A stretch of DNA of 32,428 bases from an uncultured Verrucomicrobiota bacterium (GTDB lineage Bacteria; Verrucomicrobiota; Verrucomicrobiia; Limisphaerales; JAJXZI01), in the NCBI GenBank assembly GCA_903847485.1, contig CAINDV010000661.1, positions 1-32,428 of the forward strand. The letters run 5' to 3'. Position 1 is the stretch's first letter, and the number at the start of each line of letters is the position of its first letter. The position numbers were made by a program, and so were the translations under genes. Below, piece by piece: positions 3,250-15,111 of the stretch. The notes under the pieces are model-generated. The model was not told where the DNA came from. It saw only the letters and a program-made list of their open reading frames with translations, and did not search any database.

Positions 3250-3266
3250 TTTCGAGCGCACGATTT

Positions 3267-3294
3267 GGGGCGGCGGGCTTCGGTTCGTCGCCCC
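3267..3294 (+). promoter_or_regulatory. Stable hairpin after rplL (possible attenuator or processing site)
   Basis: GGGGCGGCG (3267-3275) pairs with CGTCGCCCC (3286-3294) with one G-T pair, around a TTCG-containing loop. It lies 17 nt after the rplL stop in the 213-nt rplL-rpoB gap. No T run follows. In E. coli this same gap carries a partial attenuator and an RNase III site; equivalence here is inferred from position only. Confidence 0.45.
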
Positions 3295-3310
3295 GATGTG
3301 CCTGTTCAGC

Positions 3311-3327
3311 AAGGCGCGAAGCCTTTT
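3311..3327 (+). terminator. Weak terminator-like hairpin in the rplL-rpoB gap
   Basis: AAGGC (3311-3315) and GCCTT (3321-3325) form a 5-bp stem with a 5-nt loop, followed by a short T run (TTTT, 3324-3327). It is weak for a full terminator but could give partial termination before rpoB, lowering polymerase subunits relative to ribosomal proteins. A further 5-bp hairpin, ACCAC/GTGGT, lies at 3346-3360. Confidence 0.3.
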
Positions 3328-3462
3328 GAAAAACATCCAGTTTCAACCACTTAGCGTGGTGATTGAGCCGGTGAGTTCAACGCGAAATGCGGGACTCGGA
3401 TCGGTGATTTATCTTTGTTAACCCTGACCGGTTTAGTGTCGGTCGTCGGAAGAATCAAGCAC

Positions 3463-11553: not shown

Positions 11554-11581
11554 TTGCAAAAAAAAACGCGATCGCTATTCT
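11554..11581 (+). promoter_or_regulatory. Putative sigma70-type promoter for the str genes
   Basis: TTGCAA (11554-11559) and TATTCT (11576-11581) are separated by 16 nt, part of it an A run. They resemble -35 and -10 boxes. The site lies in the 101-nt rpoC-rpsL gap, where an independent str-operon promoter would be expected. Transcription would start near 11588, at the base of the hairpin at 11589. Confidence 0.45.
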
Positions 11582-11588
11582 CAACTTT

Positions 11589-11606
11589 CCGTTTGCCACC
11601 AAACGG
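11589..11606 (+). promoter_or_regulatory. 5'-leader hairpin of rpsL
   Basis: CCGTTTG (11589-11595) and CAAACGG (11600-11606) form a perfect 7-bp stem with the 4-nt loop CCAC. It begins about 8 nt after the putative -10 box, so it could be the extreme 5' end of the str mRNA. No T run follows, so it is a poor rpoC terminator. A stabilising 5' stem-loop or an S7/S12 binding site is possible. Confidence 0.4.
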
Positions 11607-11631: not shown

Positions 11632-12036
11632 ATGCCGACGATAAATCAACTGGTCCGCAAGGGCCGAAACAAACTAAAGCGCAAGTCCAAGTCGCCCGCC
11701 TTGGAGAACTCGCCGTTCCGTCGTGGCGTGTGCATCCAAGTGATGACACGCACGCCGAAGAAGCCTAACTCGGCCATGCGCAAAGTGGCCAAAGTCCGCC
11801 TAACTAATGGCTATGAGGTTATTGCCTACATTCCGGATGAGGGGCATAATTTGCAGGAACACTCGATCGTGATGGTTCGCGGTGGACGTGTCAAAGACCT
11901 GCCCGGCGTGCGCTATCATATTGTGCGGGGTCGGTTGGACGCTGCGGGCGTTGAAAAACGTCGCGTTAGCCGCTCAAAGTACGGGGTCAAGAGGCCGAAG
12001 GCAGGCACCAAGCCTGCCGCCGCAAAGGCGACTTAA
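11632..12036 (+). CDS. rpsL: 30S ribosomal protein S12 (uS12)
   Basis: A 134-residue protein of the decoding centre. It shows [54 protein letters not shown] and [13 protein letters not shown]. The lysines where streptomycin-resistance substitutions arise in other bacteria, Lys43 and Lys88 counting Met1, are both wild type. Asp89, the residue that is methylthiolated in some bacteria, is present. A short Ala/Lys tail follows the usual C-terminus. rpsG starts 12 nt downstream. No Shine-Dalgarno is visible. Confidence 0.98.
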
Positions 12037-12048
12037 AGAACTAGAAGT

Positions 12049-12522
12049 ATGTCACGACGTCGAAGAGCAGTAGCGCGCACAGTGTCGGAAGATCCGAAGT
12101 TCAAGAGTGCGCTGGTTACCCGATTGGTCAACACCATCATGAGTGGTGGTAAGAAATGCACGGCGGAGCGGATTGTGTACGGCGCATTTGACCAAATTGT
12201 GGTTAAGAACCAGACCGCCAACCCGCTTGAGGTGTTGCAGCGCGCGGTGGACAACGCCAAACCGCGCATTGAGACCAAGCCGCGCCGAATGGGCGGTGCC
12301 ACCTATCAAGTGCCCTTGGAAGTGCCCGCGGAACGCCAGGCTTCCCTCGCGTTGCGTTGGATTGTTAATTTTGCCGACGCGCGCAAGGGTGTTCCGATGA
12401 GCCAGGCATTGGCTTCCGAAATTCTGGAAGCCTACCAAGGCCAAGGAAACGCCATTCGTAAGCGCGACGAGGTGCATAAGATGGCGCAGGCCAATAAGGC
12501 ATTCGCACATTTTCGCTGGTAG
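12049..12522 (+). CDS. rpsG: 30S ribosomal protein S7 (uS7)
   Basis: A 157-residue primary 16S-binding protein that organises the 30S head near the E site. In many bacteria it represses the str operon. Family blocks are LVTRLVNTIMSGGKK, ERIVYGAFDQI, RVGGATYQVP-like sequence (RRMGGATYQVPLEV) and the C-terminal GNAIRKRDEVHKMAQANKAFAHFRW. Length is typical (about 156). The gene is followed by an intrinsic terminator, then fusA. Confidence 0.98.
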   Translation: MSRRRRAVARTVSEDPKFKSALVTRLVNTIMSGGKKCTAERIVYGAFDQIVVKNQTANPLEVLQRAVDNAKPRIETKPRRMGGATYQVPLEVPAERQASLALRWIVNFADARKGVPMSQALASEILEAYQGQGNAIRKRDEVHKMAQANKAFAHFRW

Positions 12523-12540
12523 GAAACGACTTGCATACTT

Positions 12541-12574
12541 ACGCCCCGGTGGCTAGGACTGGCGGGGCGTTTTT
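12541..12574 (+). terminator. Intrinsic terminator between rpsG and fusA
   Basis: ACGCCCCG (12541-12548) pairs perfectly with CGGGGCGT (12563-12570), an 8-bp stem with a 14-nt loop, followed by TTTTT (12570-12574). It lies 18 nt after the rpsG stop and its T tract ends 18 nt before the fusA ATG. It would end or attenuate rpsL-rpsG transcripts. I saw no convincing promoter between it and fusA. Confidence 0.7.
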
Positions 12575-12592
12575 GGTCCCCTAATTTTGTAG

Positions 12593-14773
12593 ATGGACGC
12601 AGCAGCAGACAATAAGAAATCGGTGAATTCGCCGAGCCGGGCCTATACGATGGAGCGTACGCGCAACATCGGTATTGCTGCGCACATTGACGCCGGAAAG
12701 ACCACGACGACCGAGCGCATCCTGTATTATACCGGTCTGATCCACAAAATGGGCGATGTGGACGACGGCAATACTGTTACCGATTGGATGGAGCAAGAGC
12801 GCGAGCGTGGGATCACTATTACCTCAGCGGCCACGACTTGTTACTGGACGCAAAAACGCGAGGGTGGCTTGTATAAGTCGTTTGAAGAAATTGCCCATCG
12901 GGTCAACATTATTGATACCCCGGGACATGTGGACTTCACCGCCGAGGTCGAACGGTCCCTGCGCGTGCTGGATGGCGCCGTGGCCGTTTTCTGTGCGGTA
13001 GCGGGAGTCCAACCCCAGTCCGAAACGGTCTGGCGGCAGGCGACCAAGTATCGGGTTCCGCGCATTGCCTTCATCAACAAGATGGATCGGACGGGAGCGA
13101 ACTTCGAGAACGCCATCAGCGATATGCGCAAGAAGCTTGGAGCTTATGCGTTTGCCATTTTTCTGCCCCTCGGCAAAGAGGACTACCTGACGGGCGTCCT
13201 GGACGTTGTGAACCAAAAAGCCATCATCTACGACCCGCTCGACGAGTTTGGGATGAGGTATGAGGTCGTCGGAATTCCCGCCGAAGAGAAAGAGCGCGCA
13301 GAGATGGCTTTGGCAGAATTGATTGACGCGTGCTCCAACAAGGACGAACAAATTGCGGAGTTGGTGATTGATAACAAGCCGATCGAGCCTGCCGTTCTGA
13401 AAGCGGCCATCCGCCGGTTGACGTGTAAGAACGAACTGATCCCGGTTCTGGGCGGCTCCGCCTTCAAGAAACGTGGCGTGCAGCCGCTCGTTGATGCGGT
13501 CGTGGACTACTTGCCGTCTCCGTTAGATGTTCCGTCGGCGACCGGCCAGGCGACAGATAACGCCGAGGCCGTCGTTCAGGTTCCATCCTCCGACCACGCC
13601 AAGTTTTGCTCGCTGGCCTTCAAGTTGTGGACCGATCCCTTTGTGGGCAAGCTGGTATTCTTCCGGGTCTATAGCGGCACCCTTAAGAAAGGGGACATCA
13701 TTTACAACCCTCGGACTCGCAAACGGGATCGAGTTAGTCGCGTGATGATGATCCAGGCGGACAAACGCATTGACGTGGAGACGACTTATGCTGGCGACAT
13801 CGCGGCGCTGGTTGGTCTGCGAAATATTACGACGGGCGATACGCTTTGCGACGAGTCTTTTGAAGTGACGCTTGAGCCGCCGACCTTCCCCGAGCCTGTT
13901 ATCTCAATGGCTGTCGAGCCTAAGACTCGCGCGGATAGAGACAAAATGAGTGAGGGCTTGCAGCGACTCGCGGAAGAGGATCCGACTTTCAAGTGTTTCA
14001 CAAACGAGGACACTGGCCAACTCATCATCGCCGGCATGGGTGAGTTGCACTTGGAGATCATTCGCGACCGTTTGTTCCGTGAGTTTAAGGTGGAAGCGAC
14101 TGCGGGAGCCCCTCAGATTGCCTATCGCGAGACTATCACGCGCGCAGCCGATGGCGAGGGCAAGTTCATCCGCCAATCCGGCGGTCGTGGTCAATACGGG
14201 CATGCTTGCATCAAGTTGCAACCGAATGAGCGTGGCAAAGGAGTTGAGATCGAAAACAAGATCGTAGGCGGTGCCATTCCGAAGGAATATATTCCGGCTG
14301 TTATCAAAGGCATCGAAGAGGCCGTCAAAGGCGGAGTGCTCGCTGGATTCCCGATGGTGGACGTGAAGGTGCAAGTGGTGGATGGCACCTTTCATGAAGT
14401 TGATTCCAATGAGTTGGCTTTCAAAATGGCCGGGATTTTCGCTCTGAAAGACGCAGCTAGGAAGGCTGGTGGAATTCTGCTGGAGCCGCTCATGAAGGTG
14501 GAAGTGACAACCCCTGACGAGTATCAAGGTGATCTGCTTGGCGATTTGAACCGCCGACGCGGCAAGATCATCAGCATTGATGTCAAGGATACTGCCACGA
14601 TTCTCAATGCCGAAGTTCCGCTGGCTGAGATGTTCGGTTATGCGACGGCGATTCGATCCCTTTCCAAGGGGCGTGCCTCCTATTCGATGGAGCCACTCGC
14701 CTTTGAACCGGTTCCGAACAGTATCGCCGAGAAGATTCTGGATACCACCAAGCCGAAAGCGGCCCGAACTTAG
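12593..14773 (+). CDS. fusA: Elongation factor G
   Basis: A 726-residue translational GTPase that drives mRNA-tRNA translocation and, with RRF, ribosome recycling. GTP-binding motifs are G1 AHIDAGKTT (30-38), G3 DTPGH (108-112) and G4 NKMD (162-165). Further blocks are GMGELHLEII in domain III and the domain IV RQSGGRGQYGHACI. The usual start would be near Met20 (MERTRNIGIAAHID). ATG at 12593 adds a polar 19-residue extension, and neither start has a Shine-Dalgarno, so the exact start is uncertain. tuf does not follow; rpsJ does, after 29 nt. Confidence 0.97.
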   Translation: MDAAADNKKSVNSPSRAYTMERTRNIGIAAHIDAGKTTTTERILYYTGLIHKMGDVDDGNTVTDWMEQERERGITITSAATTCYWTQKREGGLYKSFEEIAHRVNIIDTPGHVDFTAEVERSLRVLDGAVAVFCAVAGVQPQSETVWRQATKYRVPRIAFINKMDRTGANFENAISDMRKKLGAYAFAIFLPLGKEDYLTGVLDVVNQKAIIYDPLDEFGMRYEVVGIPAEEKERAEMALAELIDACSNKDEQIAELVIDNKPIEPAVLKAAIRRLTCKNELIPVLGGSAFKKRGVQPLVDAVVDYLPSPLDVPSATGQATDNAEAVVQVPSSDHAKFCSLAFKLWTDPFVGKLVFFRVYSGTLKKGDIIYNPRTRKRDRVSRVMMIQADKRIDVETTYAGDIAALVGLRNITTGDTLCDESFEVTLEPPTFPEPVISMAVEPKTRADRDKMSEGLQRLAEEDPTFKCFTNEDTGQLIIAGMGELHLEIIRDRLFREFKVEATAGAPQIAYRETITRAADGEGKFIRQSGGRGQYGHACIKLQPNERGKGVEIENKIVGGAIPKEYIPAVIKGIEEAVKGGVLAGFPMVDVKVQVVDGTFHEVDSNELAFKMAGIFALKDAARKAGGILLEPLMKVEVTTPDEYQGDLLGDLNRRRGKIISIDVKDTATILNAEVPLAEMFGYATAIRSLSKGRASYSMEPLAFEPVPNSIAEKILDTTKPKAART

Positions 14774-14802
14774 ATAGTCATTAACAGAAAACTGCTCTTT
14801 CT

Positions 14803-15111
14803 ATGACTGGACAAAGAATTCGTATAAGACTTAAGGCGTACGATCACCGGGTGATTGACCAATCCGCCAAGGAGATTGCCGACACGGTGAAAAGAACCGG
14901 CGCGCGGGTTGCCGGGCCGATACCCTTACCCACCCGCATTGAACGCTTTACTGTGCTGCGTTCGCCGCACGCGGACAAGAAATCGCAGGAAACGTTTGAG
15001 CAGCGCACCCACAAGCGGTTGCTGGACATTATTGATCCCACGGCCAAGACAGTGGATGAGTTAAAAAAGCTCAACCTGCCTGCCGGGGTGGACATCACCA
15101 TCAAGATCTGA
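14803..15111 (+). CDS. rpsJ: 30S ribosomal protein S10 (uS10)
   Basis: A 102-residue 30S head protein that also acts as NusE, bridging NusG and the ribosome. The sequence contains the family pattern [43 protein letters not shown] and [13 protein letters not shown]. It is the first gene of the S10 block, only 5 nt before rplC. The 29-nt gap after fusA holds no L4-type leader structure, so the E. coli mode of S10-operon control is not visible. Confidence 0.98.

Follow-up and report, generated by a model that had tools for sequence, protein, structure and literature searches.

The spacer between rpsG and fusA in the str operon of an uncultured Verrucomicrobiota bacterium of the order Limisphaerales contains a GC-rich hairpin that is directly followed by a T tract. 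Judged from its sequence and that of its relatives, this spacer hairpin is not a product of chance, since 62 of the 71 related loci in which fusA follows rpsG carry both hairpin and T tract. We consider it fairly probable that the element is an internal intrinsic terminator which is partly read through, is kept by selection in the str operon and would lower the expression of fusA relative to rpsL and rpsG. The hairpin probably serves to make less EF-G than ribosomal protein.

According to the mechanism proposed here, RNA polymerase would start at the rpsL promoter and transcribe rpsL and rpsG. A share of the polymerases would stop at the GC-rich hairpin and its T tract, which would give a short rpsL-rpsG mRNA, and the remaining polymerases would read into fusA and, in this genome, probably into the genes behind it. 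The mRNA for EF-G would thereby be kept below that for S12 and S7. The sequences show the hairpin itself, its conservation, the paired changes in its stem, its fixed distance to the rpsG stop codon and the lack of rpsL-type promoters 5' of linked fusA genes, whereas termination, its partial nature and its effect on EF-G are inferred. In many cases the gene for EF-G lies in one operon with ribosomal protein genes, and it is only partly understood how different amounts of these proteins are made from one transcript.

The rpsG-fusA spacer

The window, i.e. the whole stretch of DNA that was analysed (32,428 nt), contains nusG, rplK, rplA, rplJ, rplL, rpoB, rpsL, rpsG and fusA and, further on, genes from secY to rplQ, as identified by Pfam; rpoC and the genes from fusA to secY were named by position only. 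The following features are relevant here:

11554..11581, + strand: inferred rpsL (str) promoter, the likely source of fusA transcription (TTGCAA, 16 nt, TATTCT)
11632..12036, + strand: rpsL (S12; Pfam PF00164)
12049..12522, + strand: rpsG (S7; Pfam PF00177), stop codon at 12520-12522
12541..12548, + strand: 5' arm of the putative terminator stem, ACGCCCCG, with the core GCCCC kept in relatives
12549..12562, + strand: 14-nt loop (from the fold), its 5' half containing GGC
12563..12570, + strand: 3' arm of the stem, CGGGGCGT, the exact reverse complement of the 5' arm
12570..12574, + strand: T tract TTTTT (from the sequence), the first T being part of the full 8-bp stem
12593..14773, + strand: fusA (EF-G; Pfam EF-G domains), the gene 3' of the putative terminator
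14803..15111, + strand: rpsJ by position and sequence (open frame, gene order), next after fusA

The perfect 8-bp stem and the TTTTT that an earlier note on this DNA had described are confirmed, the arms ACGCCCCG and CGGGGCGT enclosing a 14-nt loop. Within the spacer of 70 nt, the hairpin starts 18 nt after rpsG and the T tract ends 18 nt (12575-12592) before the fusA ATG at 12593, from which the EF-G frame is intact. The first T of the run pairs with A12541 and leaves four free T behind the full stem. A GC-rich hairpin with an immediate T tract is thus present on the coding strand behind a gene, as is typical of an intrinsic terminator. The same note had remarked on the missing Shine-Dalgarno sequence before fusA. 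This is true and at the same time ordinary here, since an SD-like tetramer stands at 6 of the 34 listed starts in the window, which are those of the longest frames and of which some are probably not true starts.

The fold of positions 12536-12576 has an energy of -19.2 kcal/mol (z = -2.56), which was equalled or bettered by 4 of 200 shuffles; the fold of the entire 70-nt spacer is ordinary (z = -0.74, 41 of 200 shuffles as good). Rfam revealed only a tRNA in the window and nothing at 12400-12700 with E-values up to 5, and no curated family of known ribosomal protein leaders matches at the site.

The hairpin might also be a product of chance or a functionless leftover. This would agree with a generic terminator scan of 5-20 kb of the window, which found 17 sites compared to 16.7 expected and hence no regional excess of terminator-like sites. 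The scan was restricted to loops of 3-8 nt and for this reason does not list the hairpin described here. It lists a weaker overlapping hairpin (12564-12580), in which the GGGG is paired with a downstream TCCCC; by eye, this downstream CCCC is not kept in relatives. Since the generic scan showed no excess and the long loop is not listed by it, chance had to be judged from the relatives.

Two further observations concern the window. The rplL-rpoB spacer (3250-3414), which is the site of an attenuator in E. coli, contains a stable GC-rich hairpin without a T tract. Just 5' of the rpsJ start (14790-14802) there is a TTCTTT-like pyrimidine-rich stretch without a Shine-Dalgarno sequence, and this stretch recurs by eye in relatives (e.g. 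L005, L006).

Conservation of the hairpin in Limisphaerales

With the S7 protein we found 80 loci (L031-L110). Their titles include Limisphaerales, Verrucomicrobia subdivision 3 and Pedosphaera, besides the less precise Verrucomicrobia, and the order is named Limisphaerales after these relatives. They partly overlap with the genomes of the loci L001-L030, and the two sets are not summed. In the 75 nt after rpsG that were scanned, 69 of the 80 loci possess a hairpin with a T tract, compared to 94 of 1600 shuffled spacers (20 shuffles for each locus). The gene fusA is located next to rpsG, here called linked, in 71 of the 80 loci; L069 and L052 were settled by reading, L052 being linked on the first fusA codons only at a contig end, and L061 was classed as unlinked from 246 nt of sequence. 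Of these 71 linked loci, 62 possess both hairpin and T tract, and the stem contains GCCCC/GGGGC in 61 of the 62. In L057 and L084 the hairpin is present and the T tract has decayed, so that of the 64 linked loci with a hairpin, 62 have at least four T among the six positions behind it. The remaining seven linked loci (L046, L070, L072, L075, L079, L102 and L110) are without the hairpin. On the S7 tree they require three changes, and four of the seven (L070, L075, L079 and L110) form one clade.

The same kind of hairpin was recognised by eye in 29 of 30 loci taken from 58 genomes of the order, L025 being without it, and in 3 of 3 further members of the order. The earlier note had proposed to compare this spacer among relatives and to look for loss of the stem or the T run in close ones; such a loss was not seen in the same-family genome G001 (L002), which has both stem and T run. 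The pattern CGCCCCG-N3-20-CGGGGCGTTTT has a single match in the organism's own draft genome (9.0 Mb, 76% complete), at exactly this site. In the 58 genomes the same exact pattern gave 44 matches in 34 genomes, 26 of them just 5' of fusA and 18 elsewhere (positions compared by eye), and a reversed control pattern matched once.

Outside the order the trait is rare. Within the same class, a terminator was found in the spacer of 2 of 35 linked genomes (L191 and L205; 37 genomes fetched), and in other classes of the phylum in 1 of 18 (L237; 20 fetched), in scans that stopped near the fusA start, as compared to 75 nt for the 80 loci. The spacer hairpin therefore marks Limisphaerales. Two of the loci (L069 and L098) bear the title Akkermansia muciniphila and one (L075) Hydrogenedentota; the rpsG of these metagenome bins groups with the other loci, and the labels may be wrong.

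The pairing of the stem was examined in an alignment of 58 rows that was not fitted to the structure; 9 of the 64 hairpin rows were omitted as near repeats by eye, and the window, L022 and L030 were added. Altogether, 92% of the cells are paired, compared to 38-55% in slid registers. Changes on both sides occur in 5 of 9 pairs (21 cells), a value reached in none of 500 shuffles. Most of them lie towards either end of the stem, and each of the five core pairs has at most one altered cell and hence provides little information. Another covariation measure, the number of further pair types, was not above the shuffles (161/500). Paired changes of this kind are expected for an intrinsic terminator. 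Although the absence of the hairpin from 7 of the 71 linked relatives might speak for a chance hairpin or a leftover, its frequency in the linked loci as compared to shuffled spacers and the paired changes in the stem already contradict this explanation, which we regard as highly improbable.

A stable and conserved stem between the genes of one operon is also what one would expect of a stem-loop that shields the 3' end of the rpsL-rpsG mRNA after cleavage, and operons with selective RNA processing and stabilisation are described in PMC8219983. In sequence, a stem with this function could hardly be told from a terminator. However, stabilisation alone does not need a T tract directly behind the stem, which is kept in all but two of the linked hairpins, and a processing function appears quite improbable to us.

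Promoters of linked and relocated fusA genes

A promoter matrix was derived from the sequences upstream of rpsL in the window and in 74 of the 80 loci, which gives 75 regions in all. Its motif consists of TTGCAA, 15-19 nt, a TATATT-like element and then CCGCGCTCCGTTT. All 75 rpsL promoters, which are at the same time the training set of the matrix, score above 8 (window 31.2, median 35.4, minimum 12.3), and none of 75 shuffled regions scored as a promoter. In the window, TTGCAA-N16-TATTCT is followed by ..TTCCGTTTGCC, the consensus of the order being CCGCGCTCCGTTT, and the region 11554-11600 with the rpsL promoter and the first transcribed bases is strongly conserved. A looser promoter pattern gave 10 matches in five genomes, of which 3 were at rpsL, compared to 5 for the reversed control.

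The promoter matrix was then applied to the 330 nt upstream of linked EF-G genes in 64 cases (63 of the 71 linked loci plus the window; in the other 8 loci the upstream sequence or the motif was missing), a test that covers the rpsL-type promoter class. Only L102, which is itself without a hairpin, has such a promoter before fusA. The next scores belong to L083 with a hairpin (6.1) and L046 without one (4.7, TTGCCC/TATAAT). As far as the rpsL class is concerned, there is thus no promoter between the genes in 63 of the 64 cases, as would be required of an attenuator.

It is conceivable that the hairpin is a full terminator and that fusA is transcribed from its own promoter of another class. Such a promoter might lie unrecognised within rpsG, the spacer or the hairpin, and perhaps gives a nearly leaderless mRNA. 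The inner terminator scores like the terminators at the fusA end of the same loci (see below), and several relatives have a TATTCT right behind the T tract. However, this TATTCT is not kept in the window, where only 18 nt separate the T tract from the ATG. In the window, neither rpsG nor the spacer gave a sigma-70-like site in a generic scan, although this is weak evidence, since the scan also misses the inferred rpsL promoter. In addition, rpsG contains no outstanding patch of synonymous constraint (ratio 0.78-1.05 in 10-codon windows with 2-10 informative codons each). Taken together with the 63 of 64 cases without an rpsL-type promoter, these results do not support the unseen fusA promoter within rpsG that the earlier note had suggested, and we judge a full terminator with a hidden promoter of another class unlikely.

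In nine of the 80 loci rpsG is not linked to fusA (L041, L061, L066, L073, L074, L085, L095, L101 and L106). In eight of these genomes fusA is located elsewhere (L111-L118); a full fusA was not found in the ninth, L061. All eight relocated fusA genes possess an rpsL-type promoter (scores 22-35), with the same arrangement 5' of the gene as in the window, and none of the eight has a hairpin with a T tract before the gene. They represent natural experiments, in which the moved fusA has a promoter of the rpsL type and lacks the hairpin. Since linked fusA genes are without such a promoter and relocated ones have it, linked fusA seems to rely on polymerases that read through the hairpin, as far as this promoter class is concerned.

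The relocated genes also bear on a role of the hairpin in the translation of fusA. As 0 of 8 relocated fusA genes carry it, the hairpin is not needed for fusA translation, and this function is ruled out.

On the S7 tree, linkage changed 8 times (at least 7 by starred branches), and on the EF-G tree, which excludes loci with under 900 nt of EF-G, 7 times (at least 5). Several changes on both trees indicate more than one event, unless the genes moved sideways. The loss of linkage between rpsG and fusA recurs within a single large clade. Another terminator stands at 7 of the 9 unlinked rpsG ends, with a loop of 3-4 nt in 6 of the 7. The fusA leaders of L113, L117 and L118 are alike by eye, which may hint at sorting of an old fusA copy or at transfer.

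Strength and position of the terminator

Terminator strength was scored with a formula that weights the T tract. The inner hairpins have a median loop length of 12 nt (n = 62), while the 25 rplQ terminators and the 7 unlinked rpsG ends have loops of 4 nt. Their score is 23.2 compared to 41.4 for rplQ (p = 2.7e-6) and 42.4 for unlinked rpsG (p = 0.0012). L041 and L073 were dropped from the unlinked group as they are without a terminator, and 5 of 30 rplQ loci, including the window, were dropped for having no terminator in 90 nt. A different picture is obtained from the 19 loci in which fusA is flanked by a terminator on either side. Here the inner stems are shorter and the loops longer than behind fusA, and the median scores are 32.2 inside and 32.0 behind (p = 0.62), with some of the fusA-end matches being doubtful (e.g. 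L035, L036, L045). The equal paired scores give no sign that the inner terminator is leaky in these loci. At the rplQ ends (L162-L190), orthologous terminators often share a GCCCG stem base and a 4-nt loop, so that conservation of terminator sequence is not confined to the rpsG-fusA spacer.

Which genes an inner terminator would act on, depends on what follows fusA. Among the 56 linked loci with a visible fusA end, an rpsJ motif stands directly 3' of fusA in 26, as it does in the window, and was not found in 30. A terminator match follows fusA in 22 of these 30 loci, and there the inner terminator would act on fusA alone.

The distance from the rpsG stop to the first GC pair is 16.4 +/- 1.9 nt in 62 loci, compared to 26.4 +/- 8.6 nt from the rplQ stop to the stem in 25 terminators (Brown-Forsythe p = 8e-7); as the loci are related, such p-values are optimistic. 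In the 19 paired loci the median is 15 nt inside and 26 nt behind fusA. This tight spacing of about 16 nt from the rpsG stop is hinting at a coupling to translation. A ribosome that finishes rpsG might, by virtue of its footprint, be positioned directly 5' of the hairpin and alter its folding, so that readthrough would report the translation of rpsG, for instance under S7 feedback. We regard such a translation-coupled attenuator as possible but rather unlikely. The spacing on which it draws may, however, be inherited from one ancestor, as the loci are related, and neither an antiterminator from upstream nor a known ribosomal protein leader was found. The pairing of the 5' arm with the 120 nt upstream has a mean of 0.54 compared to 0.56 in shuffled sequences (p = 0.17), with 39 of 62 loci exceeding their own shuffles. 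The alternative antiterminator that characterises regulated attenuators of the rpsL-leader type was thus not detected in the upstream sequence.

If loop positions are numbered from the end of GCCCC, GGC stands within positions 2-7 in 27 of the 62 relatives, compared to a mean of 5.25 and a maximum of 13 in shuffled loops. This GGC might base-pair with GCC in the 5' arm. One could imagine a position-locked gauge, in which the stem, about 16 nt behind the stop codon, lies at the edge of the ribosome that finishes S7 and the loop GGC acts as a fast-forming competitor. We give this idea a small chance only. If it were true, readthrough into fusA would follow the rate of S7 completion, and the supply of EF-G would be tied to ribosome production in most of an order, with neither a leader peptide nor a ligand being needed.

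Besides the hidden promoter, the earlier note had offered attenuation that sets the ratio of S12 and S7 to EF-G and a readthrough switch. Attenuation is the best supported of the three. The conserved hairpin with its T tract and the lack of an rpsL-type promoter before linked fusA speak in its favor, and the hairpin would then lower EF-G. For the switch, the hallmark of an antiterminator formed by upstream sequence was not found; a ribosome-driven switch is possible, if rather unlikely.

Comparison with known systems

The E. coli rplL-rpoB attenuator is a partial intrinsic terminator that separates ribosomal protein genes from genes needed in smaller amount, and its readthrough has been measured. 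It belongs to another operon than the element described here, for which readthrough is proposed. In the str operon of E. coli, the S7 regulatory site is located between rpsL and rpsG. S7 autoregulation in E. coli concerns the same operon and acts on translation (PMC2965389); no Rfam family matches at the site studied here. In Pelagibacter, an rpsL motif occasionally occurs 5' of rpsG or fusA (PMC2704228).

The closest likeness comes from streptococci, for which Naville and Gautheret 2010 (PMC2965389) predicted a terminator-like element in the rpsG-fusA spacer. Spacer and operon are the same as here, and the likeness is one of description. In contrast to the present case, where none was found from upstream sequence, putative antiterminators are reported for these elements of another phylum. 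For Streptococcus pneumoniae, a PIPETS re-analysis shows a 3'-end peak in the expected 3' UTR of rpsG and an extra peak further on before fusA (PMC11585934). There, 3' ends were measured between rpsG and fusA, which counts in favor of our reading; the passage concerned gives no mechanism. Internal terminators in operons for ribosomal proteins and RNA polymerase have been shown by mutation to matter in Methanococcus maripaludis (PMC10450193). As we propose for Limisphaerales, internal termination lowers the genes behind ribosomal protein genes in this archaeon; however, the termination machinery is archaeal and other genes are concerned.

Judged by titles and the beginnings of abstracts, we found no literature on a terminator in the rpsG-fusA spacer of Verrucomicrobia. 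In the present case, most of an order whose members are largely uncultured has retained a single putative terminator at the same junction. While this kind of terminator is known from streptococci, the order-wide and position-locked case is new to the literature that we searched.
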